The notes under the pieces are model-generated. The model saw only the letters and a list, made by a program, of their open reading frames with translations. It made no database searches and was not told the origin of the DNA. From Anaerolineales bacterium (lineage in GTDB: Bacteria > Chloroflexota > Anaerolineae > Anaerolineales > UBA4823), in contig PQAL01000038.1 in assembly GCA_003105035.1 (NCBI GenBank), positions 1-64,000 on the forward strand: DNA of 64,000 bases, given 5' to 3'. The translations under genes and the position numbers were made by a program. The stretch's first letter is position 1, and each line of letters opens with the position of its first letter. Positions 11,350 through 36,503 of the stretch are shown piece after piece.

Positions 11350-11360
11350 GTCCACAATTA

Positions 11361-13577: not shown

Positions 13578-13587
13578 TCATTACGTG

Positions 13588-13734: not shown

Positions 13735-13774
13735 GACAGCCTCCTCACCTTAGGCTCAGAAACCGATCAATCCA

Positions 13775-15771: not shown

Positions 15772-15806
15772 GCCTCATCTCCTCATTGTAGTAAAAGATA
15801 AACAGT

Positions 15807-16256: not shown

Positions 16257-16999
16257 TTGTTTTTTTCCTTGAACCAAAAATCCGCATAGGCACGCGAAAT
16301 CCCTTCCCGGTATGCCATTTCTTCACCATCGGGGACGGGATTGTAGACCTTGACGGTTTCCATCAGCTCATTCAGGTTCTCATCGGATGGAAATTTACCG
16401 GCTTCAGTAAATTGTTGGAAGATGAGCGGGATACCGACCAGGGTGATGAGCTCCCCTGAGATGAGTACCTCCTGGATGGGGATCCCTGAACCGCAGGCAC
16501 AGGTGGCCACCACGGGCTGGCCACTGGCTTCTTGCTGGACGATACCAATTGCATCCAGCTGGATGAATTCTCCATCGCTTAGGTTCCATTGTTTTCCCAG
16601 CAGCTCATCCACCCGTTGGGCGATCTCATCCGCCAGCAGGTCAACCGCTTGCAGCCCAGCTGCATTTAATTTTCGCCTGCCTTGCAGCTCTCCAAGCTGG
16701 TTACCCGCGATAACGTCTCGCACCACATAGCTGGCGGCAGGGCGATTGGAATATCTTTCGGTAGCCTTCTGGGCACAGCGTAGCTCGCAGCCATCCACAG
16801 CGATGGTGGGGTGGAACCTGGCAAATGCTCGGTCACCTTCCCCACCCGCCAGGAACAATGGCAGGCAAAGCGTGACGGTTTCGTTTGGACGCAGATGTTC
16901 AAGCACCCGCAGGGCAGCCAGTCGGGTGACGGTGCCCTCTTCCAGCTCCTCTCCTGAGCAGGCGATGATGCCTACCTTCCTCATCGGCAGGTCAACCAT
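16253..16999 (-). CDS. DGC-domain cysteine protein with extended C-terminus
   Basis: A 248-residue protein with an N-terminal DGC domain (database name: putative zinc-binding protein). Cysteines are seen at 14 (IIACSG), 45, 71 and 75 (VDGCELRCAQK). A C-terminal part (about 165-248), with CACGSG and ISGELITLVGIPLIFQQF, is not recognised and is absent from its neighbour. GGAGGAG precedes the ATG at 16999. It overlaps the second DGC gene by 8 bases and the OsmC gene by 4. Metal or metalloid binding is plausible from the cysteines but not shown. Confidence 0.75.
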   Translation of the reverse strand: MVDLPMRKVGIIACSGEELEEGTVTRLAALRVLEHLRPNETVTLCLPLFLAGGEGDRAFARFHPTIAVDGCELRCAQKATERYSNRPAASYVVRDVIAGNQLGELQGRRKLNAAGLQAVDLLADEIAQRVDELLGKQWNLSDGEFIQLDAIGIVQQEASGQPVVATCACGSGIPIQEVLISGELITLVGIPLIFQQFTEAGKFPSDENLNELMETVKVYNPVPDGEEMAYREGISRAYADFWFKEKNK

Positions 17000-20177: not shown

Positions 20178-20279
20178 CACGCCTCCTCAATTTTTCGAGC
20201 TAAATTGAAGCAAAGTATTACAATACGTGATTTTACACCCTGATTCGGCTTTATGAAGCAGCAGTCATCCAATTACCCA

Positions 20280-20978
20280 TCACCCAATCAGCCTGGCAAG
20301 CAAAAATGCTGCCCCAGCGGCTACTCCGCCTACCATGACGGTTTGTAAGCCAGACCTGAGAGGCCGGGTACCTGTAAAGCGGCCCTTGATATATCCAAAC
20401 AGGAACAAGGCAATCAAGGTAACCACAACCGAAACAATCAGGGCAGTGGATAAATTGGGAATCAAAATATAAGGCGTTAGCGGTATAAAACCACCCACGA
20501 TGTATGACAGGCCGATGGTTAGGGCACTTCTGCGCGCCCGTAGAGGGTCAGGTACTTCCAGGCCTAGCTCAAAACGCATCATGAAATCCAGCCACTGGGT
20601 CCGGTCAGCACTCATCGCGTCCAGGATGGGCTGGATGTGCACATCCTGCATGCCATAGCCGCGGAAGACATCGGCAACTTCCTGCTTTTCGCGTTCCGGC
20701 AGGTGGTCGATTTCCCAATTCTCGCGCTGCTGCTCAGTATAGTAGTGCTCAGCGTCGGTCTTGGCAGCCAGGTAGCCACCCAATCCCATGGCGATCGAGC
20801 CTGCGGCGATCTCTGCCAGGCCAGCCAGGACGACGATCTTGGTCTGTGCTCCCGGCACACCAGAAATTCCTGCCGCCAGGGCAAATGGCACGGTGAGGCC
20901 ATCAGACATGCCAATGACGATATCACGCACGGTTTCATTGGCTCGAAAATGGCGTTCGACATGAGTTTCAGCTGTCAT
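20280..20978 (-). CDS. VIT1/CCC1-family metal transporter
   Basis: A 232-residue membrane protein of the VIT1/CCC1 family, which moves iron or manganese ions. N-terminal DIVIGMSDGLTVPFALAAG and the first helix AEIAAGSIAMGLGGYLAAKTDAEHYYTE are typical. A cytoplasmic helical region (metal-binding in plant VIT1) follows, then more membrane helices. A second, less similar family member is encoded at 35708-36466. AGGAGGGA precedes the ATG. Metal specificity is not visible in the sequence. Confidence 0.88.
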   Translation of the reverse strand: MTAETHVERHFRANETVRDIVIGMSDGLTVPFALAAGISGVPGAQTKIVVLAGLAEIAAGSIAMGLGGYLAAKTDAEHYYTEQQRENWEIDHLPEREKQEVADVFRGYGMQDVHIQPILDAMSADRTQWLDFMMRFELGLEVPDPLRARRSALTIGLSYIVGGFIPLTPYILIPNLSTALIVSVVVTLIALFLFGYIKGRFTGTRPLRSGLQTVMVGGVAAGAAFLLARLIG

Positions 20979-21250
20979 TTCTTTCCCTCCTGACCTTTAC
21001 AAGACGCGGGAATTTCCTAAGGTCTCTGTTTTCCCCCGGTTTCTTCTCGCCCAACCTTTGAGCATAGAGAATAATTGAAAGCAATCATTCCAACAAGTCC
21101 CCGCCACTACCAATTGAATCTACAATTACACCCCGGTTAACCATACCACCAATGAGGTTTGTTCTGCCGTGGAAACCTTTAATATCTGATGAGCGTCTAT
21201 AATTAGCTGTCCGGATTTCGATCTCTACTTTTTCCTTCATGGAGTATCTC

Positions 21251-21955
21251 ATGAGAGTAAAGCTATTCCTTTCGTTGCTCAGCTTTGTGTTTTTAATGGC
21301 AGGCTGTAAAAATGCATCACCAAGCATTGCTCCAACCAACGTGCCTGCCAACACCCCAACCCTGGAGTTTTCCTTACCCATTCCAGCCACCCTCGTCAAC
21401 CCTACCGCATCAAAAACCCCGTCTGTGGAGAAGCTTACCCTGACTCCCGTCTCCGACCAGCAAAACGTGTTGGATTTGGCATTCGAGGTCATTAATGTGA
21501 TTAAAGCGGATGATTCGGTTGCATTGTCTCAATACGTCCACCCGCAGATGGGTCTGCGTTTCTCGCCCTATTCTTACGTCAAAGATTCCGACCAGGTATT
21601 TACTACTCAGCAAGTGGCAGGTCTGCTGGATGACAGCACAGTGTATCTGTGGGGAAATTATGATGGCTCCGGTGAACCGATTAACCTGACTTTTGCCGAC
21701 TATTATGCCAAGTTTATCTATGATGTAGACTTCGCAGACGCCCCTCAACTATCCCTTAACCACCGCCTGAGCACGGGCAATTCGATTGACAATAGCCAGG
21801 AGTACTACCCCGGCTCTATGATCGTTGAGTTCTATTTCCCTGGTTTCGATCCCCAGTATGGCGGCATGGACTGGCGCAGCCTGCGCTTAGTATTCATGCA
21901 GGATGACGGCACCTGGTACCTTGCTGGCCTCATCCACGACCAGTGGACCACATGA
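21251..21955 (+). CDS. Predicted lipoprotein, unknown function
   Basis: Family not recognised. A 234-residue exported protein with lipobox LMAGC (Cys19) and a Thr/Pro/Ala-rich linker, then a folded domain of about 160 residues (QNVLDLAFEVINVIKADD to YLAGLIHDQWTT). The ATG at 21251 is chosen because GGAG lies before it; an ATG at 21239 would extend the signal. The region upstream (20979-21250) holds no other gene. Such small surface lipoproteins are common near the cell envelope genes of this phylum. Confidence 0.7.
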   Translation: MRVKLFLSLLSFVFLMAGCKNASPSIAPTNVPANTPTLEFSLPIPATLVNPTASKTPSVEKLTLTPVSDQQNVLDLAFEVINVIKADDSVALSQYVHPQMGLRFSPYSYVKDSDQVFTTQQVAGLLDDSTVYLWGNYDGSGEPINLTFADYYAKFIYDVDFADAPQLSLNHRLSTGNSIDNSQEYYPGSMIVEFYFPGFDPQYGGMDWRSLRLVFMQDDGTWYLAGLIHDQWTT

Positions 21956-22015
21956 CACAGTATCGGCACACATAGAGTGGTTTTCTCGGATAACATTCTG
22001 GTTTACAATTAAGCC

Positions 22016-22774
22016 ATGTTCACCCATGCCATCACCCGCTTGCCCGGGGGTAATTTCTCCGACGGGATCACCACCTCCAACCTGGGTCAACCAAGCTATC
22101 CACTCATCCTCGAACAACATCGGGCTTACCGCCAGGCCTTGCTCAGCCTGGGCCTGGATGTGATCGTCCTGCCAGCCGAACCGGATTACCCGGATGCCTA
22201 TTTCGTCGAAGACCCAGCCATCGTCACCCCCAATATCGCCGTGGTCACCTACCCAGGTGCATCTCCCAGGCAAGGTGAGCAGGTCAGCCTGGAACCCTTT
22301 TTGCAGTATTATCGTACCATCTTCCACATCCAGCCCCCCGGCACAGTCGAGGGCGGGGATGTGCTGATGGTGGGCAATCATTTCTTCATTGGCTTATCCG
22401 AGCGGACCAATGCAGAGGGTGCTGAGCAGCTCATGGCATTCCTGCGGAATGCGGGGCACACTGCAGAAACAATCGCTGTGTCAGCCGGTTTGCACCTGAA
22501 ATCCAGCGTCAATCATTTAGGCGAAGGCGTATTGCTAATTACCAGGGAACTTTTTGATATCCCGGCTTTTGCAAGCTACCATAAAATCCTGGTGGATGAC
22601 AGCGAAGCCTATGCCGCCAACACCTTGTGGGTGAATGGTAGCCTGCTTGTGCCGAGCGGCTTTCCCAAAACCAGGGTAAAGCTCGCTGCGCTCGATATGC
22701 CCATCATTGATTTGGATGTCAGTGAAGTGCAGAAGATGGATGGCGGCCTGACTTGCATGTCCCTGAGGTTCTAA
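22016..22774 (+). CDS. Dimethylarginine dimethylaminohydrolase-like enzyme
   Basis: A 252-residue member of the amidinotransferase/DDAH superfamily, which hydrolyses guanidino groups to ureido groups. Catalytic elements: PDAYFVEDPAIV with the conserved Glu-Asp pair, EGGDVLMVG, LHLKSSVNHLG with the catalytic His, and C-terminal nucleophile Cys247 in GGLTCMSLRF. DDAH makes citrulline and dimethylamine from methylated arginine, but relatives have other substrates. TACAAT (22004-22009) ends 6 bases before the ATG, the best leaderless-type start in the window. The methyltransferase downstream may be cotranscribed. Confidence 0.83.
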   Translation: MFTHAITRLPGGNFSDGITTSNLGQPSYPLILEQHRAYRQALLSLGLDVIVLPAEPDYPDAYFVEDPAIVTPNIAVVTYPGASPRQGEQVSLEPFLQYYRTIFHIQPPGTVEGGDVLMVGNHFFIGLSERTNAEGAEQLMAFLRNAGHTAETIAVSAGLHLKSSVNHLGEGVLLITRELFDIPAFASYHKILVDDSEAYAANTLWVNGSLLVPSGFPKTRVKLAALDMPIIDLDVSEVQKMDGGLTCMSLRF

Positions 22775-22781
22775 TAAGATC

Positions 22782-23573
22782 ATGGGTCTCAATTGGATCG
22801 ATTCCAACCAGCTTTCTTTCAATACCTTGCTCTTGCTCGAACGGGTGCAGCTGAGCTGGTTCCCCGGATGGGTGCCTGAAGCTAAGATGGCGATTACCCT
22901 GCGCGCCAACCCGCATATTGAGTGGTACCTGCGGCATAAGTGCCCCGAGCTGAACCCCTGGGTGGACCAGCTATTATCAGCAAATCCACCTACCTTCTCT
23001 CCGTCTGCTGAACAAATCAGGGCAGCAGAGATCGCCGTCATGAACACCATCAACGACCTGATGGTGTATGTGGTCGACCCTAAGCTCTACGATGCCCGGC
23101 CCTTCATGGCCTGGGATGAGAACGAGCTGCTCATGCTGACGGAGTTCTCAGGCAAGATTGTCATCGATGTTGGTTCTGGCACAGGTAAGCTGGCGTTGAT
23201 CGCCGCCAGTAAAGCCCAGGTGGTCTTTGCCGTGGAGCCGGTGAGCAACCTGCGTCGATATATAAAGGATAAAGCCCGGGCTCATAATATCTCGAACATT
23301 TTCACGGTGGATGGCTTGATCACCGATATACCCTTTCCGGACGGTTTCACCGATATCACCATGGGGGGCCACGTTTTTGGCGAGACACCTGAATTGGAAT
23401 ATGCCGAGTTGAAACGGGTGACCAGGCCAGGTGGGATGGTCATCCTGTGCCCGGGCACCTCTATGAATGAGACCCAGGCACATGAATTTCTCCTAGAGGA
23501 AGGCTTTGCCTGGTCAGTCTTCGAAGAGCCGCAGGATGGGCCTATGCGGAAGTATTGGAAAGTTTTACCCTGA
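22782..23573 (+). CDS. SAM-dependent methyltransferase
   Basis: A 263-residue class I methyltransferase: motif I VIDVGSGTGKLAL near residue 127, acidic loop VEPVSN, and PGGMVILCPG in the post-motif region. An N-terminal 100 residues of unknown fold (RVQLSWFPGWVPEAK) precedes the domain. The substrate is unknown. It starts 8 bases after the DDAH-like gene, so the two are probably one transcript. Confidence 0.82.
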   Translation: MGLNWIDSNQLSFNTLLLLERVQLSWFPGWVPEAKMAITLRANPHIEWYLRHKCPELNPWVDQLLSANPPTFSPSAEQIRAAEIAVMNTINDLMVYVVDPKLYDARPFMAWDENELLMLTEFSGKIVIDVGSGTGKLALIAASKAQVVFAVEPVSNLRRYIKDKARAHNISNIFTVDGLITDIPFPDGFTDITMGGHVFGETPELEYAELKRVTRPGGMVILCPGTSMNETQAHEFLLEEGFAWSVFEEPQDGPMRKYWKVLP

Positions 23574-23696
23574 CCTGACGTCGGGGAAGGGGAACTTCTC
23601 AGTCACTAAAACAACGATTTGGAAAAGTCAATCGTGTATGGGGCGTTTTTTTTCAAGGTACCCCATTTTATGGAGATCAGAATTATTATGAACAAA

Positions 23697-23726
23697 ACCT
23701 ACCTGCACTAGAGTATGCAGGTAGGT
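23697..23726. terminator. Bidirectional hairpin terminator
   Basis: ACCTACCTGCA at 23697-23707 pairs perfectly with TGCAGGTAGGT at 23716-23726 (11 bp, 8-base loop). On the plus strand it is followed by ATTTTG; on the minus strand by TTTGTT. It lies between the converging methyltransferase and mttB genes and can end transcripts in both directions. Confidence 0.72.
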
Positions 23727-23747
23727 ATTTTGAACAGCTGAATCTGC

Positions 23748-25187
23748 CTAGTGCTCTGGGATCTCCCGCTCTGCCCGACGGAGAATCTTCTCCACTTTTT
23801 CACTCACCTCTCCAGGTAGCGGGTCGATCACCGGTCCTTCCAGGATGGACTGCACCAATTCACGGGCTTTCGAATACATTGACGGTTTCCCGATACTGAC
23901 CCAGCTCTCAAGCGAATGACGGTCTATCAACGCCGGGGTATATAGCTCATTTCCCCGTGCAGCCAAACGGGTGCTTTTTGCCCCCAAGAAATGCCCCCCA
24001 GGCCCAACCCGGCTGATATCTTCTAGCAGGTCTTTTCCATCCGAGCAGTCCACACCCTGCGCCAGGCGTTGCAACAGGTGCGCGATCTCGTTATCCACCA
24101 CAATTTGCTCCAAGACGAGCAGCTGGTCACTCTCGATTTCGCCAAAACCCACCAGGATATCCGCACCAGCCAAGACCGACGGCAATGTGGTGATGATTTT
24201 TTCGATCACTGCTTCCGGCCCGGCTTGCTTGGCATCGGAGGTGAACCCTGCCCCACTGGATGGGAAGCCATAATAGTGCGCCATTTCCACCAGGGCGGCA
24301 GTTTGCAATGCCATCTCTGGCACACCAGCCAGGTAGGCACCGCTCCGGAAATCGGTGATAGCCGTGGAGCTGGAGAAAATGATCGGCCGGCCTGGATGCG
24401 CCAACTGGAAGATCACCAGCGATGAGAGCATCTCAGCGTTCGCCAGGGCGATGTTCGATAGCAAGCTGGCCGGTCCGGTGGTGCCAATCACCGGCATGGG
24501 CATGCACATCACGGGTAGGTCGACCTGACCGAGCTCGAGGTAGGCGTCCAGCATCTGCCCATCATGGGTCAATGGGGCCACCGGGCAATAGATTAGCGAA
24601 TAGGCGTGGCTTTCCTTCAAGGTGGTTTCGCTGCCCACGATTGCCGCCAACCCTTCGATCAGGAAAGGTGCTTGTGCCACCGTATGCAGCTCGTGCTGAC
24701 CATGTTTAGAGCAATTGGTAGCCATGCTCAAGAATTCGTACAATGCCCGGATGTGGGCGGGCTTGTCTGCCGCACAGGTGGGCGCCCAGGCCATCACCCC
24801 CATATCCATCTGCTGAAAGACCTTCAAAGCTATTTCGATGTCCTGGCTGGTGCCGTAGCGTCGCTCACCACTTTGAAAATCCAGGGCAAAGGCAGCCGTC
24901 CCATCCAACCCGTAGCGAGTTTGCAGGGTGGGTAATGCCAGGTTGTAGGTGGGGTTGCGTGCCTCAAGCACGAACGACCTTGGTGCAGTTTTCAAGGCCT
25001 GGTTCACCAGCTCGGTGGGTATTTTGGCAATCCTCTCTTGTGGGTCGATGGGTATTCCATGACTACGAAAGATTTTCGGTGCCTGGTCCCCATAAAACCG
25101 AATGCCCACTTCCTCCAGAATGTGCAGGCTCATGTTGTGGACGCGGTGTTGTTCTTCTTCTGTCAGAATCTGGGCGGTGAACTGCAT
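23748..25187 (-). CDS. MttB-family (non-pyrrolysine) methyltransferase 1
   Basis: A 479-residue trimethylamine methyltransferase-family protein. Shared landmarks are MHVRxLEEVGIR-like N-terminal (SLHILEEVGIRFYG), GTTGPASLLSN and RVGPGGHFLGAKSTR. There is no internal amber codon, so it is not a pyrrolysine TMA methyltransferase; homologues without pyrrolysine demethylate glycine betaine (MtgB), proline betaine or carnitine and transfer the methyl to a corrinoid protein. The substrate here is unknown. GGAGG precedes the ATG. Last gene of the transporter-mttB operon. Confidence 0.9.
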   Translation of the reverse strand: MQFTAQILTEEEQHRVHNMSLHILEEVGIRFYGDQAPKIFRSHGIPIDPQERIAKIPTELVNQALKTAPRSFVLEARNPTYNLALPTLQTRYGLDGTAAFALDFQSGERRYGTSQDIEIALKVFQQMDMGVMAWAPTCAADKPAHIRALYEFLSMATNCSKHGQHELHTVAQAPFLIEGLAAIVGSETTLKESHAYSLIYCPVAPLTHDGQMLDAYLELGQVDLPVMCMPMPVIGTTGPASLLSNIALANAEMLSSLVIFQLAHPGRPIIFSSSTAITDFRSGAYLAGVPEMALQTAALVEMAHYYGFPSSGAGFTSDAKQAGPEAVIEKIITTLPSVLAGADILVGFGEIESDQLLVLEQIVVDNEIAHLLQRLAQGVDCSDGKDLLEDISRVGPGGHFLGAKSTRLAARGNELYTPALIDRHSLESWVSIGKPSMYSKARELVQSILEGPVIDPLPGEVSEKVEKILRRAEREIPEH

Positions 25188-25234
25188 AATTCCTCCGTGT
25201 CTTGGTGATCTAAATGACCTGGAAAGCTTGCGAT

Positions 25235-26689
25235 CTAGTGACCTTTTTCCTGGTCTGCAGCTTTCAATAGATTGCGTAGCTCAGCTTTTTGAGCGTCTTC
25301 CAGGGGCTGGGGATAATGGTTGGCCAGGATCCATTCCACTTTTTCGCGGGCTACTTCAAGGACGTCCCGATAGTCTCCGGCCAAGTTTCGCTGGCCGGTC
25401 AGGTTGGAGTATTGGCGCTGGCGTAGATTTTGGCGGGTATGCCGATGAGCCAGGTATTGGCCGCGTGGGCCGACCTCGCGGATCACATCCAAGGCTAAGG
25501 CCTCAGGGCTGGTGTTAAAATGGGAGGCTTCATGCCTGACACGATGGTATACATCGGCGTCCAATAAGATTGCTTCAGGGTAGAGCAACATGCACGACTC
25601 AACCAAGCCTAATCCACTGCCGGTTTCAGCGCCTGCCAGCGCGCACAACAATAATGACGATTCAGCTTCCGCAGCTGATTGCCAGCCTGGGACAACTGCA
25701 TCTGTCCCGAAGATACCGGCCAACGTGGGCACTCCCCAATGGTGGGCCATCTCCGCGCCCAACGGGTACAGCTGCGAGCCCTCGAATGTGCTGCTCTGGT
25801 AATCGCCGGTACGTGGGTGCATGATACCGGGCATCAGGGAGTGAAATACTGGGGCACCTGGCGCTGCCATCTGCAGCAACACCAGGGCGGAGATGATCTC
25901 TGCATCCCCGGTGACCAGCGTGCCTGCCAGGGTGGCCGGTGCGGTGGTCCCGGTATTGACCATCGACATGAATCCCACCGGCAGACCTGCTTCGGCAAAC
26001 ACTAGGGCTGATTCCAGACCATCGCGATCCTGGGCTAGGGGTGCGATGCAACATACCAACAAGGACAGGGGCGGACGCTGGCGCCTGACCTGCTCAGAAC
26101 CTGCCACCACGTTTGCCATTTCGATGGCATAACGTGCCGTCCATTCGCCCATGATGGTCTCAGATTGGATATGCTTTATGGTATTGTTGAAAGATGCCTC
26201 AATTTCGTGGAGCGGGGCAGTCTCAGGGTAATCCTGTGCACTGACGATCGGCCAGTAGAATCCCAGGGCGCTCAGGTAGTCGGATACCCTGGCCATGGCA
26301 GCCACATCTTCTTTTCTGGAGCGCCTTCTCTGGCGGGTGACAAAATCGATGGTTTCAACCCCACACCCATCCGTTGCGCAATACAAGGCTGTGCCATCCA
26401 GGTGCAAATCGAAGTCCTGGGAACGCGCCCCCATGGTGTAGTAACGCGGGGCATGATTCATAGTCTCCAGCACCACCTCGCTGGGCAGCTTTACCAGCTG
26501 GCGCTGAAAATCCACCCTGCCGCCATGCTCGGCGTAGATTTTTAGTGCCATCTCCGATGGGCAGTGCACCCCCACCTGTTCCAGGATCTCCAGGGTGGCC
26601 GCCTGCAGCTCATTAAGCTGGCGTTCATCCAGGATATTCACATGGTAACCGGGCACGATCGGTTGCAGGGCGGGAGTTTCACTAGCCAT
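25235..26689 (-). CDS. MttB-family (non-pyrrolysine) methyltransferase 2
   Basis: A 484-residue MttB homologue. It is closest in the cluster to methyltransferase 3: both have DGCGVETIDF-TRQRR, GTTAPATLAG, QMAAPGAPVFHSL-type sequence, and AEMAHHWG. It lacks the GPGGHFLG sequence of copy 1, having GPRGQYLAHRHTR. No in-frame stop interrupts it. Corrinoid partner not found in the window. Spacing to copy 3 is 5 bases, so translation is coupled. Confidence 0.88.
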   Translation of the reverse strand: MASETPALQPIVPGYHVNILDERQLNELQAATLEILEQVGVHCPSEMALKIYAEHGGRVDFQRQLVKLPSEVVLETMNHAPRYYTMGARSQDFDLHLDGTALYCATDGCGVETIDFVTRQRRRSRKEDVAAMARVSDYLSALGFYWPIVSAQDYPETAPLHEIEASFNNTIKHIQSETIMGEWTARYAIEMANVVAGSEQVRRQRPPLSLLVCCIAPLAQDRDGLESALVFAEAGLPVGFMSMVNTGTTAPATLAGTLVTGDAEIISALVLLQMAAPGAPVFHSLMPGIMHPRTGDYQSSTFEGSQLYPLGAEMAHHWGVPTLAGIFGTDAVVPGWQSAAEAESSLLLCALAGAETGSGLGLVESCMLLYPEAILLDADVYHRVRHEASHFNTSPEALALDVIREVGPRGQYLAHRHTRQNLRQRQYSNLTGQRNLAGDYRDVLEVAREKVEWILANHYPQPLEDAQKAELRNLLKAADQEKGH

Positions 26690-26694
26690 AGTTG

Positions 26695-28152
26695 CTACCC
26701 CTTGCGAAGCTCTTTATCCGCAGCCGCCAAAATCCGTTTAAGCTCAGCCTGTTTTTCACCTTCCAATGCCTGTGGATGATGATTCTTGCGGATCCAATCG
26801 ACCTTTTCAATCGCAACCTGGCGAGGGTCGCGATATTTTCCATCTTCACCGATCTGGTGATTAATGCCGCGAACCAGCGATTCGCGGATGTGGTTGCGAG
26901 TATGCCTCTGCCCCAGATAATGACCACCCGGACCGACCGCATGAACCGTGTCGAGCGCTAATGTCTCGGGGCTCACCTCCAGATCCATCAGCTGGTAGCG
27001 AGCCCGCTGGTACAGGTCATCATCCATGATGATCTGTTCAGGGTAGAGCAGCGTGTATGTCTCTGAGAGCCCCAATCCGGTGACAATATCTGCACCGGCC
27101 AAACCAGCCAGGTATGGATCCAGTGCCACCTCCCCTGCACCCAGCCATGTGCCGGGTTCATGGGCATCCGTGCCGTAGCAAGCTCCCAGTGAAGCCATAC
27201 CCCAATGGTGGGCCATTTCCACCGGTGCGTAGCGCGTCCGGCTATCCAGCGAATAACTCACATAGCCCCCCGTGCGCGGGTCAGCCCAGGCTTGCATCAA
27301 CGAGTGAAAAACCGGGGCACCAGGGGCGTGAAGCTGCATGAGCACCGTTGCGCTGATAATCTCAGCATCCCCCATGGCAAATGCACCGGCCAGGGTAGCG
27401 GGGGCGGTCGTCCCCAGGGTGGGCATGGCCAGGAACCCGACTGGTAGCCCAGCTTCTGCCAATACCAGCGCACCTTCGATCCCAGCCGTGTCTTGCACCA
27501 ACGGAGCGATCGTGCACACCACTAGCGAGAACGGTGGGCGCTGGCGCAGCTCCTCCCGGCTTCCGGCGATCACACTAGCCATCTCAGCAGCATACCGGCA
27601 GGGAATTTCCCCCATCACCGTTTCACTTTGCACATGCTTTACCGAGTTATTCCAGGCGGCATCGATTTCATGCAGTGGGGCAGTCTCGCCGTGATCCTGG
27701 GCACTCACCATCGGCCAGATAAATGCAATGGATGGCAGGTAATCGGAGATCAAGGCCATCGTTCCAACGTCAGCCTTGCATGAAGGCCGCCGCTGCCGGG
27801 TGGTAAAGTCAATGGTCTCCACCCCGCACCCGTCTGTAGTAAAGAATGTCACTCCCTGGGCCAGCTGCAAGTCATAGCTCGGTCGCCGCGCGCCTAGTAT
27901 AAAATAGCGGGGAACCGTGAATAAGGCTCTCAAAACAAAATCCGGCTGCATTCTGACCACCTGCGACTGCCAGTCCACTTGCGCACCGTGTTCGGCAAAG
28001 ATCGACAGGGCTTTTTGGGATGGAAATCGTACGCCAGTCTTATCTAAGATCTCCAGCGTTGCGGCTTGCAAATCATCCAGCTGTTTATCGGTCAGGAATT
28101 GCAGGTGATAATTGGTCTGTAATGGTTGTAAGGGTGGGTATTCGGTTGGCAT
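26695..28152 (-). CDS. MttB-family (non-pyrrolysine) methyltransferase 3
   Basis: A 485-residue MttB homologue, sister of copy 2 by shared motifs (TTDGCGVETIDF, GTTAPATLAGAF, VEMAHHWG). The C-terminal VGPGGHYLGQRHTR matches the family. An AAGGATAAATT ribosome-binding site precedes the ATG. The duplication that made copies 2 and 3 is older than a recent tandem event, since DNA similarity by eye is only partial. Predicted methyl donor unknown. Confidence 0.88.
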   Translation of the reverse strand: MPTEYPPLQPLQTNYHLQFLTDKQLDDLQAATLEILDKTGVRFPSQKALSIFAEHGAQVDWQSQVVRMQPDFVLRALFTVPRYFILGARRPSYDLQLAQGVTFFTTDGCGVETIDFTTRQRRPSCKADVGTMALISDYLPSIAFIWPMVSAQDHGETAPLHEIDAAWNNSVKHVQSETVMGEIPCRYAAEMASVIAGSREELRQRPPFSLVVCTIAPLVQDTAGIEGALVLAEAGLPVGFLAMPTLGTTAPATLAGAFAMGDAEIISATVLMQLHAPGAPVFHSLMQAWADPRTGGYVSYSLDSRTRYAPVEMAHHWGMASLGACYGTDAHEPGTWLGAGEVALDPYLAGLAGADIVTGLGLSETYTLLYPEQIIMDDDLYQRARYQLMDLEVSPETLALDTVHAVGPGGHYLGQRHTRNHIRESLVRGINHQIGEDGKYRDPRQVAIEKVDWIRKNHHPQALEGEKQAELKRILAAADKELRKG

Positions 28153-28208
28153 AATTTATCCTTGAATAGCTGGTCATTTTTTACGGAATGGGTTATTTTA
28201 TCGATGTG

Positions 28209-29639
28209 TCACCGAGACGCACGTGCCCGTCTCTCGAGGTGTTCAAGCTCGCGTAGCGTATCTTCAGGTAAGGGCAAGGGTTGGTGATGTGATAAAAGCT
28301 GTCGAATATCTTCCCTGGCCTCAGCCAGGATGTCTGGTGAACCCGAAGCGATCCATTGTTCGTACGGGCCATGCTGCCCAAATTTACTCCTATAGATTTC
28401 ATCGGAACGAACCATCCTGCGCGTAGAGCCATGTTTAAGGTAATTTCCTCCCGGTCCCAGCTCGGAGATCACTTCACCCAGCCATTTTTCGGTGCTGCTG
28501 CCAATTCCTGAGCTGAGGCGTTTACAGCGCCGGACAACTTCCACGTCAATCATCATTTGCTCAGGGCTGAAGATGGTTGAACCCCCCAGCAACCCCGGCC
28601 CCACCAGTAAGTCGGGCTGTGCTAAGACCGGTAGGGCATAATTCAATGCACGTTCATAAGCTGCTTGGATACATGGCACATGGTGGTCCGAACCTCCCGT
28701 GCTAGCTTCTACTGGCAACTGATACATGCGGGCAAGCTGTGTCACTGCCGCGCTTAGCAGGGCATGTTCCACCTCGCCACTCCCAAACCGGCCTGAGTGC
28801 ATATCGGCAATTACAGGCACGGCTGCGTAGATGAATGGAGTTCCTGGTGCAGCAGCCTGGATAAGGCAGAGCATTGCCAGCGTCTCACAGTTAGCCAGGA
28901 TTAGTTGCGAGATCAATGAAGCCGGTCCGGTTAACCCCAGCATCGGCATGGTCATCACCGCCACGGGGATGCCCCACTCCAACGTCTCAAGGTAGGCATC
29001 CGTATATTCACCCTCGATGAGCAGAGGGGAGGCGGGGCATATGAGGAATGAAACCGGCAGGGTTTGCTTAAACTCAAGCGGGCTACCAAACACCACCTGG
29101 AGCACTTCCAGCATCCAGCGGCTTGCTTCAGGTGTTGCGGTCGATTCCTGGATATGCTTGGAAAAATTTGAAAAGATGGTTTTCCAGTATGCCACCGTAT
29201 CACCAGGCGTATGTCCCCAACAGCCTTCGATGGCACTCCAGTACACATCGATATCATCCAGGCAGTCACCCAGGCGTGTCGCCAGGTACCAGTCATCCAG
29301 GTTGGCAGTCCTGCGCACACCTGCATCCGCATCGTAAGTGTAGACTGCCGCGCCATCCATGATGATTCCACACCGTCCACTGTTCATGGGCAGTGTGCAC
29401 CCGGGCCGGCGGGCACCAAGCTGGAATGCCTTGGGCGCCAGATCCAGGCAGGCCTCAACCAGATTTTTTGGAAAATGTACGATATGCGAAGCGTGGTCAA
29501 CATCTGCACCAGCTTGCCCAAGCAAGTTCCGCCCGCGCTGAGTATCTACCCTCACCCCAGTATTTTGTAATATACGCAAGGTCTCTTCATGAATGCGGTC
29601 ACACTCATCTGAAGATAGCACCTGCACCTGGGTTTTCAT
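28209..29639 (-). CDS. MttB-family (non-pyrrolysine) methyltransferase 4
   Basis: A 476-residue MttB homologue and the first of the four in transcription order. It shares with copy 1 the pattern ...LGLTGPASLISQLILANCETLAML and a C-terminal EIYRSKFGQHGPYEQW like copy 1's ELYTPALIDRHSLESW. Its ATG overlaps the stop of the dppC-like permease gene (TAATG), tying methyltransferases to transporter in one operon. The protein has the GPGGNYLKHGSTRR element. Confidence 0.88.
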   Translation of the reverse strand: MKTQVQVLSSDECDRIHEETLRILQNTGVRVDTQRGRNLLGQAGADVDHASHIVHFPKNLVEACLDLAPKAFQLGARRPGCTLPMNSGRCGIIMDGAAVYTYDADAGVRRTANLDDWYLATRLGDCLDDIDVYWSAIEGCWGHTPGDTVAYWKTIFSNFSKHIQESTATPEASRWMLEVLQVVFGSPLEFKQTLPVSFLICPASPLLIEGEYTDAYLETLEWGIPVAVMTMPMLGLTGPASLISQLILANCETLAMLCLIQAAAPGTPFIYAAVPVIADMHSGRFGSGEVEHALLSAAVTQLARMYQLPVEASTGGSDHHVPCIQAAYERALNYALPVLAQPDLLVGPGLLGGSTIFSPEQMMIDVEVVRRCKRLSSGIGSSTEKWLGEVISELGPGGNYLKHGSTRRMVRSDEIYRSKFGQHGPYEQWIASGSPDILAEAREDIRQLLSHHQPLPLPEDTLRELEHLERRARASR

Positions 29640-30553
29640 TAAACTTCCCCCATTTTCTCCAAAACTTTGTGTGGATCAAACGCGTCGCGTAAGCCATCAC
29701 CGATGTAATTGATCGAGATTACCGACAAGAAGATCATTAATCCCGGGAAGATAGCTAACCAGGGGTATTTCACCAGATAATCCTGAGCATTGCTGAGCAG
29801 GTTGCCCCACGATGGCGTGGGAGGCTGGATGCCGAATCCAAGATAGCTAAGCCCCGATTCTTCCAGGATGGCATAAGCTACTTCCAGCGTGGCCTCAACG
29901 ATGACTGGCCCGATGGCATTGGGGAAGATGTGGATGGCAATGATCCGCATGTTGTTGGCCCCCAAGGCCCGCGTGGCGGTCACAAAGTCCATCTCACGAA
30001 TCGTTAGGTAGGAGGCACGCACGATACGGGCGGTGAACATCCAGGCCAGCAAGCCGATCACCCCTGCGATGGTCAACACGGGATTACTCTTTAAAAATGG
30101 TGCATCGACCTCGCGAAGGACGGCGCTTAACAGGATAAGCACCAGCAAGGATGGTAAAGCCAGGGCTGCATCGGTGATACGCATTAAGATATTATCAATC
30201 CGCCCCCCAAAATAACCCGCAATCGCCCCAACTGGCACCCCGATCAAGAGGGTGATGATCATCACCGAAAATCCTACCGCAAGTGATACCCTGCCTCCAT
30301 ATAAAACCCGCGTCATTAAGTCCCGTCCGAGTGCATCAGTCCCCATCGGGTGCGACCATGAAGGTGGCTGGTAACGCTCAGCCATATCCGACTTGATCGG
30401 ATCGTATGGGGAAAGGAAGGCAAATGCACATGCCAGGATGATTAAAGACAACACGATGCTGCCTGCAATCGCGCCAGGATGTTTCCGGAAACGCTTCCAG
30501 ATCATCCCACTCATGGTTGATTCGCGTGCGATTTGAATGGAGGCTTCAGTCAT
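29639..30553 (-). CDS. ABC transporter permease, Dpp/Opp C type
   Basis: A 304-residue membrane subunit of a peptide/nickel-type ABC importer (family DppC/OppC). Features: N-terminal cytoplasmic helix then membrane segment, SHPMGTDALGRDLMTRVLYGGRVSL, and the EAA coupling loop ATRALGANNMRIIAIHIFPNAI. The start overlaps the upstream permease by 8 bases. These importers need two ATPases, which are not in this window. Confidence 0.92.
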   Translation of the reverse strand: MTEASIQIARESTMSGMIWKRFRKHPGAIAGSIVLSLIILACAFAFLSPYDPIKSDMAERYQPPSWSHPMGTDALGRDLMTRVLYGGRVSLAVGFSVMIITLLIGVPVGAIAGYFGGRIDNILMRITDAALALPSLLVLILLSAVLREVDAPFLKSNPVLTIAGVIGLLAWMFTARIVRASYLTIREMDFVTATRALGANNMRIIAIHIFPNAIGPVIVEATLEVAYAILEESGLSYLGFGIQPPTPSWGNLLSNAQDYLVKYPWLAIFPGLMIFLSVISINYIGDGLRDAFDPHKVLEKMGEV

Positions 30554-31586
30554 AGTGTATGCGGGGGTCTAATCTTGAGTAAACGATATCAGCCAGCAGG
30601 TTAGCAATAATCACCGCTACCGTTCCAATGGTCAGGATGGCCATCAAAGTGGGATAATCACGATCGATTGCAGCCTGGTAATACAAACGTCCCATCCCAG
30701 GCCATGAAAAGAGAATCTCTACATAGAGTGAGCCAGCAAAAATGTACGGCAGGTCAAGTGCAAAAATCGTCACCAATGGGAGCAGGGCATTGCGTAAAGC
30801 ATGTTTGTAATAGACCTTGTTCAAGGTCAAGCCCTTAGCCCTGGCGGTCCGGACGTAATCCTGGTGGATAACATCCAGCATGCTGGAGCGCAAGAAGCGT
30901 GAATACCACGTCACCCAACCCACCACTCCCATAGTGACAGGCAGGATTAAATGTTTCGTCCAGTCGATTAGCGAGAACCCCATGCCCAAGGTATACATCC
31001 CTCCCGCAGGGAGAAGCGAATCTCCTGTGATGGGGTTTTTTAGCCAGACGTAGAATATTAAAATCAAGATTAAACCCAGCCAAAACTCTGGGATAGCCTG
31101 GCCAATAAATGACAATGTAGTGACAACGATATCGAACTTGGAGTATTGTTTTACGGCGGATATTACACCGACAGGGATGGCGATGATTGCCACAACCGAT
31201 AATGTCACCGACATCAGATATGCGGTATTTTTGAAACTCTCCTTGATCGAGTCGATGACAGGTTTCCTGGTGCGGTAAGAATTACCAAAATCACCTCGCA
31301 GGATGCCTTTGCCGTGCCCGGGGGTTTCCTTTACGCCATCCCCATCCGCATCGATCTTTGTCCAATCATTGCCGATCAGCCAGAAGACATAACGCACATA
31401 CACGGGTTGGTCCAGGCCGAACTGGCGTTTTAATATCGCGATCTGTTCCGCATTCAACCGCCGGGATGTCCCCCTTCCAGAAAGTGGGCCACCAGGTGCC
31501 AGGTTAACCAGGGCGAATAAGACGACGCTAACGATCAGCAATAATGGAATCGCCTGCAGCAGTCTCCTGACAAGATAGTTGCCCAC
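30546..31586 (-). CDS. ABC transporter permease, Dpp/Opp B type
   Basis: A 346-residue DppB-type membrane subunit. N-terminal LVRRLLQAIPLLLIVSVVLFALVNLAPGG is diagnostic, and the coupling loop is YVRTARAKGLTLNKVYYKHALRNALLP. After the first helix it has an insert of roughly 25 residues with IDADGDGVKE, an EF-hand-like calcium-binding loop not usual in DppB. Start codon is GTG with AAAGGATT upstream. It heads the permease pair and follows the binding-protein gene by 35 bases. Confidence 0.92.
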   Translation of the reverse strand: MGNYLVRRLLQAIPLLLIVSVVLFALVNLAPGGPLSGRGTSRRLNAEQIAILKRQFGLDQPVYVRYVFWLIGNDWTKIDADGDGVKETPGHGKGILRGDFGNSYRTRKPVIDSIKESFKNTAYLMSVTLSVVAIIAIPVGVISAVKQYSKFDIVVTTLSFIGQAIPEFWLGLILILIFYVWLKNPITGDSLLPAGGMYTLGMGFSLIDWTKHLILPVTMGVVGWVTWYSRFLRSSMLDVIHQDYVRTARAKGLTLNKVYYKHALRNALLPLVTIFALDLPYIFAGSLYVEILFSWPGMGRLYYQAAIDRDYPTLMAILTIGTVAVIIANLLADIVYSRLDPRIHYD

Positions 31587-31621
31587 TTCTGTCTAATCCT
31601 TTATCCCAATCAGCTCAATGA

Positions 31622-33385
31622 TTACTTTACGGTCCAATCCGCCACATTCCAGGTGACAATCTCGTTGGCGTTCGACTTCACACCCTGCAGCCGTGTGGAA
31701 TGGGCATTGGCATCCACAGTGGTGAATAGTATCAGCTCGGGCAGGTCTTCATCCAGGATCTTAGCCAGCTGGCAGAAACTCTCCTGACGTACAGCTTCGT
31801 CCAAGGTATATGAGGCATCGATCAGCTCATCCACCTCTGGCTTAATGTAACGACCATAGTTTAAACCAGCATCAGGTACAGCTGCCGCTGAATAATAGTA
31901 ACCCCACAGGAAATCAGTCGGGTCAGTGCCAGAATAACCGTCGTCCCAGATGTCCATATCAAAATCACCCGATTGCTCGATGCCACCGTTTTCGGATGAA
32001 TCCCAAAGAACAGTCCCCTCAACCCTTTGAATGCTGAGCTTGATGCCAATTTCTCCAAGTTTTTCAGCGATAAACTCCTGAGTCAGGTCGAGGGCTTCAC
32101 CATACTCTGAATAGGTATAGAACTCCATCTCCATCTTATAGCCGTCCTCGGCGCCAGTGGTACAACCCTGGCATTCACGGATACCATCCCCATCAATGTC
32201 TACCCAACCAGCTTCTTCAAGTAGAGCTTTGGCGGCTTCAGGATCATACTTTGGCTCCGGGATGTCACACACATTGTAGGGAGGTCGGAAGAACTCCGTC
32301 CAGACCTTTTTGGCATAATCGTACCAAAATGTTTTCGAAATGGTATCAACATCGATGCCCATCCGGATAGCTTGACGGACGCGGACATCGGAGAGGATGG
32401 GGTGAGGTGTTGCAACCGGGTCGGTTGTCCCCTTGGCTGCCAGGTTAAAGAAGATACGCATCACCCAGCGATCCACCGGGCTCAGGCTGACCTGGACAGC
32501 ATCAGAATAATTCTGCAGTTCATAGACAATCGGCTCAGGTGTCCACATATCAAGATCAGCATCCCCGTTAATCAGCATCTGCTTGCGGACTGCCTCATCC
32601 GGGACGATTTTGACCAAGATCTCATCGATTGACGGTTTGCCCGGTTCGAAATAGGTTGGATTTTTCTCGAAGGTCAGGTGGTCATTCTGCACCCATTCCT
32701 TGAGGATATACGGGCCATTGCTCAGAGGCTGCAATCCGCAGTCCCAGTTGGCGAAACCCTGCTCAGCATCACAGTAATGAGCCGGCCACACTACCATCAA
32801 GTAGCCTCCGAATTGGATCAGGTAACCTGGATATATGGCATTGTAGTGCACAACTGCAGTATATTCATCGATTTTCTCTACACTATCCACATAATCAATG
32901 CCAGGAATCCAATAGCCTGTCTCGGGGTCCACCACTGCTTCATAGGTGAAGACCACGTCATTAGCAGTGACTGGTGTGCCATCTGCCCATTGAATGTCCT
33001 GCCGAAGCTTCCAGGTTACATCCATGGTTCCATTTTCCTCATCGATGACCACACCCCCATTCTCGACGGACGGCAGCTCTACAGCCAGCTCTGCAAATGG
33101 ATTGCCATTCTCATCCAGATCTGCCAGCCCAAGCATGGTCAGCTCCATAACAAGCACATCAAACCCATTTTGGTTGATAGCTCCATTAAAGGTGGGTGGG
33201 TCTTCGGCGATAACTGCCGTTATCGAGGTTTTTTCTGGGACCGCAGTTGGCTCGGTTACCGGCGGAATTTCGCCGGTGGTTGGTTGAACTGCTGGAGCCT
33301 GGGTCTGTGTAGTACAGCCTGCAAGCGAAGACCCGATCAATACCAAAATCGCCAGCAAGGTGAACCACTTCATTTTCGCTTTCAT
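31622..33385 (-). CDS. ABC transporter substrate-binding lipoprotein, family 5
   Basis: A 587-residue solute-binding protein of the peptide/nickel/oligosaccharide-binding type (SBP_bac_5). Lipobox SLAGC (Cys24), Thr/Pro-rich linker, then the domain with TWKLRQDIQWADGTPVTANDVVFTYE near residue 130. A VDIDGDGIREC loop near residue 390 is again EF-hand-like. It selects the ligand for the importer; linkage to four MttB genes predicts a methylated amine, but this fold usually takes peptides. AAGGAA precedes the ATG. First gene of the operon. Confidence 0.93.
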   Translation of the reverse strand: MKAKMKWFTLLAILVLIGSSLAGCTTQTQAPAVQPTTGEIPPVTEPTAVPEKTSITAVIAEDPPTFNGAINQNGFDVLVMELTMLGLADLDENGNPFAELAVELPSVENGGVVIDEENGTMDVTWKLRQDIQWADGTPVTANDVVFTYEAVVDPETGYWIPGIDYVDSVEKIDEYTAVVHYNAIYPGYLIQFGGYLMVVWPAHYCDAEQGFANWDCGLQPLSNGPYILKEWVQNDHLTFEKNPTYFEPGKPSIDEILVKIVPDEAVRKQMLINGDADLDMWTPEPIVYELQNYSDAVQVSLSPVDRWVMRIFFNLAAKGTTDPVATPHPILSDVRVRQAIRMGIDVDTISKTFWYDYAKKVWTEFFRPPYNVCDIPEPKYDPEAAKALLEEAGWVDIDGDGIRECQGCTTGAEDGYKMEMEFYTYSEYGEALDLTQEFIAEKLGEIGIKLSIQRVEGTVLWDSSENGGIEQSGDFDMDIWDDGYSGTDPTDFLWGYYYSAAAVPDAGLNYGRYIKPEVDELIDASYTLDEAVRQESFCQLAKILDEDLPELILFTTVDANAHSTRLQGVKSNANEIVTWNVADWTVK

Positions 33386-34242
33386 TTCCTTATTCTCCTT
33401 TTTTGCTTAGTTCTATTTTATGGTTCTTTTGAATGGTCACTTGGCAAGATGGATTGGCACTATCCGAAATGTCTACGATCATGAGCATTCGCGCATGAAT
33501 ACTCAACCTGTATCTGCCCAGATTAAACTGAGCATCTCTCCAGGATTTTTAAATTTACAAAACAAACGAACTGTGTACTGGCTTGTTTTCGCATGGATTT
33601 TGGCTTTGCGACCAGGTTCTGATCAAGCAGTTTATTATTATGAATCTTAACAAGATGGGAAGTAGCCAGGTGTTTAGCGTGTGATGTCAGCCTGGGCAAC
33701 ATCAGTCGAGAAAGCGTATTGAAATTGCCTGTATGCCGAGTTCCCCCCTCCTTGATCAACATTCCCTTCACTACTCTCCTCCTGCATCGAATCCAACATT
33801 TAAAACAGAAGAATAATCGTCGGGCGTGCGATTACTTTTCTCGGTTATATTATTGAATAATTGTCCTCTGCGTTTACGCGGAAATAAATAACAGGCATCC
33901 AAGGAATCTCGATCATCACGGGGTTTTCTACCCAAAATTTGGGCAGATTAATTTCATCCCGCTTTAATCTTCATGTTATCACGAAATAAAGTCTTCGTCA
34001 ATTTGTGTGATTAGAAAATCACATCTTTGTAGGATTTTACCTAAAAATTTATGTTTTTCGGCGATATCATACATTCATTTACAATTTCAGGTCGGAATTC
34101 CACAATAGACGACTCCACGTAGCGGAATATCGGCAATTTCTCTGGTAATTCTGGTGTCAATAATCTCAAGTTAATAACTATCAATTCGAACGTTTAGTAT
34201 TTACAAAACGTTGGGAACGCTGTATACTTCTGTGCTAACTTT
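33386..34242. other. Long non-coding gap between divergent transcripts
   Basis: 857 bases separate the divergent binding-protein and methyltransferase genes. Two small open frames here have no good ribosome-binding site and no recognisable sequence, so I reject them. Features: CCCAAA-A-TTTGGG at 33931-33943, a symmetrical site that could be an operator, and at the right end a clear promoter for the next gene (below). The region is A+T-richer than its surroundings. I see no RNA gene. Confidence 0.4.
34200..34228 (+). promoter_or_regulatory. Promoter of the Trm112-methyltransferase gene
   Basis: TTTACA at 34200-34205 and TATACT at 34223-34228 are separated by 17 bases. The ATG at 34243 is only 14 bases beyond the -10 box, so the 5' leader would be about 8 bases long. 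Confidence 0.75.
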
Positions 34243-35058
34243 ATGAAACGCACCAGTCTTGATCTGCTGATCTGCCCCACCTGCCACGGTCCATTATCCC
34301 TCCTCCCTGCCCTTACCAATCAGCTTATTGATGTGGGCAGTTTGTCTTGCGTCACCTGCCAGGTAGAGTTTCCCATCCGGCACGGGATACCCCAATTCAT
34401 AGAGGAAACGGAGCTGGAAGGTCTCGATAAAACTTTCGCCCACTTGTATGATTGGTTTTCCTTGATCTACACCGCTTTTTCCAAGGTTGGTTTTCGGTTG
34501 CTTGGCACCACCGATGCAAAAGCCCGCACGGAGGTTCTGAACCGGCTCGAGCCAAAAGGAGGCAAGGTACTCGAGGTATCCATTGGCAGTGGGGTGAATT
34601 TACCTTATCTGCTCACCATGCCTGGGGTCGGTGAAGTGTTCGGATTGGATATCTCGCGCGGACAGCTAAAACGTTGTGGCTCGCTCATCCACCGCAGAGG
34701 CTGGCCTGTGGATCTTTTCCTGGCGAACGCAGATGATCTGCCATTCACAGACTGCAGCTTTGACTCTGTCTTCCATATCGGTGGCATCAACTTTTTTTCC
34801 AACCAGCAGAAGGCCATCAATGAGATGATCCGGGTGGCGAAACCTGGTACCAAGTTCATCATCTGTGACGAGAATGAATCTGGTGCCCAATGGTATGAAA
34901 AATTTCTGCCGGGTTTCAAGGCGGCGTTTCAAGGCCAGCGGAGAGAGATTATCGCACCCATTGATCTTGTGCCAGCGAGTATGCTTGATGTAAAACTAGG
35001 CAACATCTGGAATAATTTCATGTATTGTATCGAATTCCGGAAACCAAATAACTTGTAA
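34243..35058 (+). CDS. Methyltransferase with N-terminal Trm112-like zinc domain
   Basis: A 271-residue fusion: an N-terminal Trm112/zinc-ribbon-like domain with CPTCHG and CVTCQVEFPIRHGIPQF (CxxC...CxxC, residues about 11-50), then a class I methyltransferase (VLEVSIGSGVNLPYLL, LDISRGQLKRC, DCSFDSVFHIGG). Such fusions are known among UbiE-like methyltransferases of unknown substrate. A gene for a GbsR-like regulator follows 15 bases later. Confidence 0.85.
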   Translation: MKRTSLDLLICPTCHGPLSLLPALTNQLIDVGSLSCVTCQVEFPIRHGIPQFIEETELEGLDKTFAHLYDWFSLIYTAFSKVGFRLLGTTDAKARTEVLNRLEPKGGKVLEVSIGSGVNLPYLLTMPGVGEVFGLDISRGQLKRCGSLIHRRGWPVDLFLANADDLPFTDCSFDSVFHIGGINFFSNQQKAINEMIRVAKPGTKFIICDENESGAQWYEKFLPGFKAAFQGQRREIIAPIDLVPASMLDVKLGNIWNNFMYCIEFRKPNNL

Positions 35059-35073
35059 TAGAGGCATTCACCC

Positions 35074-35535
35074 ATGGACGGACTTCAACCGATTGAAGAA
35101 CTTCACTTTATCGAAGATATAGGATTGTACTTTGAACAGATGGGGCTGCCGCGCATGGCCGGCCGCATCCTTGGTGCGTTGCTCATTTCCGATCCAATCT
35201 CTCAATCCATCACCGATCTGGGAGAGAAGCTGCATGCCAGCAAGAGTTCCATCAGCATTATGGCTCGCTTGCTGATGGAGCGCGGCCTGATTGAAAGAGT
35301 GGCTTCTCCAATCCCACGCCGCGATTATTATCGTTTTAAACCTGGGGGGTGGATCATCTACATGCGTCAGTGGTTAGGGTTGATGGCCGGACTGCACCAG
35401 ATCACAGAAAGGGGCATGCTGTTAATGGTTGATAAACCGGAGCCTCTGAAGGAAAGGTTGAAAGAAGCGCATGATTTATTTTCAAACATTGAGCAGGAAT
35501 TCCCTGCCATTATACAAAAAATTTCCACAAAATAA
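35074..35535 (+). CDS. GbsR/MarR-family transcriptional regulator
   Basis: A 153-residue winged-helix regulator: MGLPRMAGRILGALLISDP, then the recognition helix LHASKSSISIMARLLMERGLIERV, and wing PIPRRDYYRFKPGG. It resembles GbsR-type repressors, which in Bacillus sense choline. That is notable because a quaternary-amine candidate system lies nearby, but the gene is cotranscribed with the methyltransferase at 34243, not with the mttB genes, so the link is weak. Confidence 0.82.
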   Translation: MDGLQPIEELHFIEDIGLYFEQMGLPRMAGRILGALLISDPISQSITDLGEKLHASKSSISIMARLLMERGLIERVASPIPRRDYYRFKPGGWIIYMRQWLGLMAGLHQITERGMLLMVDKPEPLKERLKEAHDLFSNIEQEFPAIIQKISTK

Positions 35536-35707
35536 TTCACAGTGCAGGTAAGGAACTATAAGCCAGGTACTGTTTACAGAGAATACTGAAAATAAGCAAA
35601 AGATCATCAGACCCAATACCGGAAAAAATTACCAATAAAGCACACAGCTTCTCCAAAATATACTCGCTTATTGTTAAAGATGATGTACTAACATATTTGC
35701 TTTGGAA

Positions 35708-36466
35708 ATGACAAGGATGACGAAAACATTACTATTCCCTCACGCACCGCATCACACCGATCACCATATTCATAACAACCTGGACCCACACCGCCGGAGC
35801 GCCTCAGGATTATCAGATATTATTCTTGGTGGGCAAGATGGTCTGGTAAATGTGCTTGGAGTCATTCTCGGTGTAGCCGCTGCCACCAGTGACCCTCACC
35901 TCGTGCTGGTTGCTGGCCTTGCCGCTACTTTTGCAGAATCAGTATCCATGGGAGCAGTTGCTTATACTTCTACCCTTGCTGACGCAGACTACTATGACAG
36001 CGAGCTCGAACGCGAGCAGCGCCATATCGAACAAGTTCCAAAAGTGGAACGTGATGAAGTCAGACAGATTTACGCTGAAAAAGGCTTTCAAGGCGAGTTA
36101 TTAGAGCACATCGTTGACACAATTACGAAGGACCCAGATGTTTGGGTGGCGGTTATGATGGCTGAAGAACATCAGCTGACCCCAATCGACCGAAAGCAAG
36201 CTTGGAAGATTGCTCTCATCGTAGGCTTTTCTGCAATTATTGGCTCCTTAATCCCGCTAATTCCCTTCATATTTTTACCTGTGACCATAAGCATGCTGGT
36301 ATCTGTGCTGGTCACCGCTCTGGTTCTATTCTTCGTTGGTGGGTATAAGGCACGTGTGACTATTGGACACCCTGTGAAGAGTGGCTTAGAAATGGCTCTG
36401 ATTGGTACATTGAGTGCCCTGGTTGGTTACGCTATAGGAGCATTGCTTAAGACCCCTGCTCCTTAA
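35708..36466 (+). CDS. VIT1/CCC1-family transporter with His-rich N-terminus
   Basis: A 252-residue VIT-type membrane protein. It begins with a His-rich segment (HAPHHTDHHIHNNLDPHRR) before the core SDIILGGQDGLVNVLGVILGVAAA; AESVSMGAVAYTSTLADADYY matches the family's first helices. The N-terminal histidines may bind metal. The start is unsure among TTG 35702, ATG 35708 and ATG 35717. It lies just before a P-type ATPase, so a metal-homeostasis pair is plausible. Compare the minus-strand relative at 20280. Confidence 0.85.
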   Translation: MTRMTKTLLFPHAPHHTDHHIHNNLDPHRRSASGLSDIILGGQDGLVNVLGVILGVAAATSDPHLVLVAGLAATFAESVSMGAVAYTSTLADADYYDSELEREQRHIEQVPKVERDEVRQIYAEKGFQGELLEHIVDTITKDPDVWVAVMMAEEHQLTPIDRKQAWKIALIVGFSAIIGSLIPLIPFIFLPVTISMLVSVLVTALVLFFVGGYKARVTIGHPVKSGLEMALIGTLSALVGYAIGALLKTPAP

Positions 36467-36503
36467 TCGTCTACGCTGGGATATTTATGAGATCATTCAA
36501 GCA

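Follow-up and report, generated by a model that had tools for sequence, protein, structure and literature searches.

The window, meaning the whole stretch of 64,000 nucleotides that was analysed, comes from an Anaerolineales genome of 4.45 Mb in the same class as the Anaerolineales MAG bin12; genome G251 carries the same locus as CP070811. Seven minus-strand genes with intergenic gaps of -8 to 56 bp lead to a terminator that is the strongest among ten terminator-like sites of the region (Table 1). A sequence-only reading of this DNA had described a family-5 binding protein and Dpp/Opp permeases ahead of four MttB homologues, in one operon ending at a hairpin. This description holds throughout: the open reading frames are present, the solute-binding protein (SBP), OppB and OppC are identified by domain matches, all four remaining products (M1-M4, 476-485 amino acids) belong to PF06253, and a hairpin with a T-run follows M1. 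No Rfam elements were found in window positions 20000-37000.

Table 1. Features of the operon, with domain scores and tree support.
Feature	Position	Strand	Match or support
Family-5 SBP lipoprotein, lipobox LAGC	31622..33385	(-)	PF00496 239 bits
OppB/DppB-type permease	30546..31586	(-)	PF00528 148 bits, PF19300
OppC/DppC-type permease, nearest Opp4C	29639..30553	(-)	PF00528, PF12911
M4, MttB orthogroup gamma	28209..29639	(-)	PF06253 217 bits; clade support 1.00 with L101
M3, MttB orthogroup alpha	26695..28152	(-)	PF06253 153 bits; clade support 1.00
M2, MttB orthogroup beta	25235..26689	(-)	PF06253 208 bits; clade support 0.99
M1, MttB orthogroup delta	23748..25187	(-)	PF06253 265 bits; clade support 1.00
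Intrinsic terminator, 12-pair hairpin then TTTTGTT	23697..23726	(-)

Tail-to-tail with the operon lies a full-length dimethylarginine dimethylaminohydrolase (DDAH) homologue (22016-22774, plus strand; 3RHY match, E=4e-69) that keeps the catalytic Cys and His, followed by a methyltransferase gene (22782-23573). Beside the relatives' operons the only counterpart is a 27% match in locus L104, and because of this lack of conservation the DDAH homologue was rejected as a member of the system.

Four distinct MttB orthogroups

M1-M4 exceed the curated PF06253 cut-off of 25 bits along their full length (153-265 bits), and do not reach that of TIGR02369, the equivalog model for pyrrolysine MttB (298-356 bits vs 525). 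That no copy has a pyrrolysine codon, as had been read from the sequence, is borne out: there is no in-frame TAG in M1-M4, and the column of Pyl334 in the alignment to Methanosarcina MttB holds G in M2, M3 and M4 and T in M1. PylS was absent in the genome search. The Tyr364 column holds T, S, V and V in the four copies. Gly110 and Met249, which have been placed at the active site of MttB (PMC9842639), are kept in M1-M4 and across their orthogroups; MtgB has Y and L at these positions. M1 matches the MtgB structure 9YCE (E=1e-60) and M3 the MttB structure 7XCL (E=7e-48). The AlphaFold model of M2, built from a 10-sequence alignment, has a mean pLDDT of 62.5, too low for a fold search.

On the evidence of the MttB tree, alpha, beta, gamma and delta are four ancient orthogroups. 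Identity to orthologues from other families is 51-71% for the window MttBs, and 28-54% to the neighbouring copies; recent tandem duplication was rejected, since every copy is nearer to such orthologues than to the copies beside it. Every MttB orthogroup is under strong purifying selection (dN/dS 0.03-0.11 among close relatives). The orthogroups and the importer have covarying distance matrices (r 0.74-0.95, uncorrected for species phylogeny), and the set has therefore been inherited together. At pocket positions, columns 245, 251, 329, 364 and 372 are mostly fixed inside each orthogroup and different between orthogroups, and the Pyl334, Tyr364 and Gly372 columns are orthogroup-specific. Taken together, orthologue identity, dN/dS, covariation and group-fixed columns argue that the four enzymes are all active and have separate roles. 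The earlier suggestion that the copies differ is supported: tree, residues, dN/dS and co-occurrence agree on non-redundant, non-pyrrolysine methyltransferases tied to one importer.

Orthologous operons and the importer

A protein search of 396 genomes belonging to the class turned up close relatives of M3 (E < 1e-130) in only four other genomes. Scanning 84,980 species genomes yielded 74 loci, almost all of them in Chloroflexota. Neighbour clustering and a 126-sequence MttB tree divide the relatives' operons into two types. Type I, that of the window, consists of SBP, OppB and OppC (where the contig reaches them) with alpha, beta, gamma and delta, and occurs in eight other Chloroflexota MAGs (L078, L079, L080, L081, L082, L088 and L108, with L087 assigned by the tree). 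Its gene order is shuffled between genomes and its content constant; L116 and L119 are without beta. Type II (L091, L094, L095, L102, L106, L110 and L117) consists of alpha, epsilon and/or zeta, a gene resembling agmatine deiminase (AguA-like) and one resembling N-carbamoylputrescine amidase (AguB-like), then beta and gamma. It often continues with genes for an aldehyde dehydrogenase, a DadA-like oxidase, a saccharopine-dehydrogenase-like protein (SacDH), a class III aminotransferase and OppDF, the fullest example lying on a single strand in “Candidatus” Desulfolinea nitratireducens (Anaerolineae; L095, 487-19138). Among adjacent pairs, beta-gamma occurs in 23 loci, OppC-alpha in 18 and amidase-beta in 12, counts that are not fully independent, as some loci are one genome (e.g. 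L069/L111). A corrinoid protein is encoded directly 3' of delta in L080 and L081, and directly ahead of the SBP in L069, L093 and L095. In L087, genes judged by eye to be Hdr/MvhD-like redox genes (10062-16869) follow directly downstream of the type I operon and may connect it with methylene-THF reductase complexes. No reports of the operon were found in the open-access PMC literature; as far as that literature shows, the operon is conserved, unusual and undescribed, and its enzyme family is ordinary.

SBP orthologues adjoining these MttBs in relatives are 59-65% identical, and OppB is 73-76% identical to its orthologues in L069 and L088. OppC scores 340.6 bits with NF045476, slightly under the cut-off of 350. 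The set of SBP_bac_5, OppB and OppC is complete in the operon, and neither OppD nor OppF is encoded in the window. The earlier statement that the window has no ATPase for the importer is correct; the genome has eight OppDF pairs elsewhere, and some relatives' operons include OppDF downstream (L084, L091, L093 and L095). The best-matching pair of the same genome (contig C12, 67-70%) adjoins another Opp set.

Partner genes elsewhere in the genome

The genome was searched by protein family and by protein. It encodes ten MttBs, four in the window operon and four on contig C24. The latter (C24:99800-107500; L026:7803-15542) make up a further four-MttB array, which is accompanied by a corrinoid protein of its own and a GntR regulator and has an M20 peptidase between MttBs three and four. 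Genes for a corrinoid protein, a reactivase and an acceptor methyltransferase are absent from the window. The genome search for corrinoid proteins that the sequence-only reading had proposed gave nine PF02607 domain matches, of which eight ORFs were taken into a corrinoid-protein tree. Among these, only the C24 protein falls in the clade of the operons, as sister to L080, L081 and L141 (support 0.98, 65-68% identity). It carries the cobalt-ligand motif DIHEIG, lies above the TIGR02370 cut-off, and is the orthologue of the protein that ends the operon in two relatives (L080, L081).

Two RACo-type reactivases are encoded, on contigs C36 and C18, and a CODH/ACS cluster lies on C18. Besides AcsE there is a second, MtgA-like methyltransferase (MeTr) on contig C10, which is above the NF005719 cut-off and 63% identical to the MeTr adjoining the L093 operon. 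The MtaA-like URO-D protein of C33 was rejected as an acceptor, being far under the MtaA/CmuA cut-offs. A cognate corrinoid protein, MeTr and reactivase are therefore in the genome (C24, C10 and C36/C18), unlinked to the window, and would together give a full route to methyl-THF; the claim that the operon has no such partners is valid for the window only. Gene content, orthology, selection and the presence of all partner genes are established. We assign the C24 corrinoid protein and the C10 MeTr to the operon as putative partners with moderate confidence, and consider tetrahydrofolate (THF), through the MtgA-like enzyme and the Wood-Ljungdahl pathway, a more likely acceptor than an MtaA/MtbA route.

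Several other loci of the genome touch on demethylation or guanidino compounds. Homologues of MtmB (PF05369) of the non-pyrrolysine kind occur together with corrinoid proteins at C18:201700-210000 (L028), the end of C18 (L029) and C10:1-7600 (L034), adjoining xanthine-dehydrogenase-type molybdenum enzymes, adenine deaminase and amidohydrolases; these clusters possibly serve corrinoid N-demethylation of methylated purines. At C43:192400-198500 (L030:4409-10534), genes resembling dimethylglycine/sarcosine dehydrogenase and genes for Rieske oxygenase lie upstream of genes for a PfkB-type kinase and an MttB, which would bring oxygen-dependent and corrinoid demethylation together. At C21:28900-33500 (L166:2942-7503), an Lrp-type regulator is followed by consecutive genes for carbamoyltransferase, APC-type permease and agmatine deiminase, an arrangement suggestive of an agmatine deiminase pathway that yields energy.

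Proposed function, substrate and known systems

We have high confidence that the operon is predicted correctly as a unit for uptake and corrinoid-dependent N-demethylation with four non-redundant enzymes. As a full proposal with partners, which is probable as a whole, the SBP and OppBC would import a multiply N-methylated cationic compound, with ATPase subunits supplied by an OppDF pair encoded elsewhere. This compound, or the products formed from it in turn, would be demethylated by alpha, beta, gamma and delta, each handing a methyl group to the cob(I)alamin of one corrinoid protein common to the four, most likely the C24 MttC. The C10 MtgA-like methyltransferase would pass the methyl group to THF, methyl-THF would enter the Wood-Ljungdahl pathway (C18), and a RACo/RamA-type reactivase (C36 or C18) would re-reduce the cofactor. 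Here we infer methyl transfer, the common corrinoid protein and ATPase, and the class of substrate, which from the gene content of the sister operons would be basic and amino-acid-like (guanidino/arginine-agmatine or lysine type). The ligands of family-5 SBPs are very diverse, which was counted against this explanation.

The clues to the substrate come from type II operons. The order AguA-AguB-beta-gamma is conserved. Of the 12 AguA-like ORFs, 10 show the motif GGxxHCxTQQ, and CWDQWxPE is present in each of the 12 AguB-like ORFs. The position of this hydrolase pair inside the MttB run suggests that the substrate, or else an intermediate, bears a guanidino group. As the AguA-like (244 bits vs 382, TIGR03380) and AguB-like (313 vs 410, TIGR03381) proteins score under the agmatine cut-offs, agmatine and a modified guanidino compound are equally likely. 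An arginase-family gene takes the place of the pair in L072 (the record of L086). The aminotransferase, aldehyde dehydrogenase and saccharopine-dehydrogenase-like genes would suit the catabolism of a diamine or a basic amino acid. Class III aminotransferases are encoded at L094:17016-18332 and L106:17532-18842, and the L094 protein is over the NCBIfam cut-off for GntE, the guanitoxin biosynthesis transaminase (571 vs 525); that model is probably broad, and the L094 copy would again be a guanidino-compound enzyme. The window operon has no guanidine hydrolase, and since the homologues in its own genome are distant and unlinked (SacDH 23%, AguA 30%), the guanidino/lysine evidence rests on relatives.

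This gene content points to a basic methylated compound, rather than the classical betaines first suggested, and the guanidino/lysine class is assigned tentatively. One point was counted against it: the MttB-superfamily substrates identified by 2025, TMA aside, are quaternary amines that carry an acid group (PMC12155760), a rule that an amino acid would satisfy and agmatine would not. We offer as a serious possibility, short of an expectation, a conserved Chloroflexota pathway that would import an N-methylated guanidino/lysine-type compound (e.g. arginine, lysine or agmatine betaine), demethylate it with a dedicated set of four to six corrinoid methyltransferases and open its guanidino group midway with the AguA/AguB-like pair. 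If true, it would be the first case of an MttB pathway acting on basic amino-acid derivatives.

Scavenging of methylated lysine or arginine is an unlikely alternative, in which the Opp-type importer would take up Kme3/Kme2 or methyl-arginine peptides, the MttBs would demethylate them stepwise, and DDAH-like and AguA-like enzymes would handle the arginine. The Opp4-type importer, the convergent DDAH homologue with its catalytic residues, and the SacDH and class III aminotransferases of sister operons favour it, but the DDAH gene is unconserved beside the operon bar the L104 match, the operon is without a peptidase, and AguA resembles agmatine deiminase, not arginine deiminase. Somewhat more doubtful still is a set of four demethylases working in parallel on different carboxylated betaines (glycine betaine, proline betaine, carnitine, gamma-butyrobetaine) behind a broad importer, as in Eubacterium limosum. 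The acid-group rule agrees with it, as do the 42 MttBs of E. limosum, several of which use one corrinoid protein (PMC12155760). Against it, no window MttB clusters with MtgB in the tree, guanidine- and lysine-type catabolic genes join relatives' operons, and the four MttBs stay with one importer across genomes, which suggests a single compound or pathway. Moreover, known betaine importers are usually ABC-type OpuA/ProU or BCCT, not Opp. That the copies are paralogues without methyltransferase function, retained for e.g. sensing or binding, would fit the absent pyrrolysine, the replaced Tyr364 and a window without a corrinoid gene, but is very improbable given the low dN/dS, the kept Gly110 and Met249, the corrinoid protein in orthologous operons and the established methyltransferase activity of non-pyrrolysine homologues (PMC12155760). 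The bathyarchaeial “MtgB” for lignin methoxy groups was dropped as a rival, its paper reporting no homology to known methyltransferases.

Only six members of the MttB superfamily had an identified physiological substrate by a 2025 count (PMC12155760), and the majority are without a known one. With four to six MttB orthogroups fixed beside one importer, joined in relatives by guanidine- and lysine-type catabolic genes, such an operon is a direct handle on new substrates. It also bears on what uncultured Anaerolineae draw from the organic nitrogen of sediment and deep water, and yields testable predictions (SBP ligand, C24 MttC partner).

Among known systems, the Opp/Dpp/Nik family-5 ABC importers have the same SBP_bac_5, OppB and OppC, the window set being nearest the Opp4 type; unlike them, it is without an ATPase and joined with methyltransferases. 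Methanosarcina pyrrolysine MttB (7XCL/7XCM) is the closest solved fold to M3 and M4 and is alike at the Gly110/Met249 positions, whereas Pyl334 is G/T and Tyr364 is T/S/V in the window copies. MtgBCD of marine roseobacters (PMC12478193) comprises two PF06253 proteins with corrinoid and THF partners encoded separately; it differs in being aerobic, acting on glycine betaine and serving methionine synthesis, and no Opp importer appears in the consulted part of its description. The non-pyrrolysine MtgB, MtpB, MtcB, MtyB and MthB of D. hafniense and E. limosum are likewise PF06253 proteins without pyrrolysine, and MtgB (2QNE) and 4YYC form a clade separate from the window MttBs in the 126-sequence tree. 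In such systems one corrinoid protein and a THF methyltransferase serve several MttBs in a Wood-Ljungdahl background, MtqC/MtqA being common to E. limosum MtpB, MtcB and MtyB (PMC12155760). Unlike these, the operon described here combines four fixed orthogroups with one Opp importer, and its sister operons carry AguA/AguB-like and SacDH genes.
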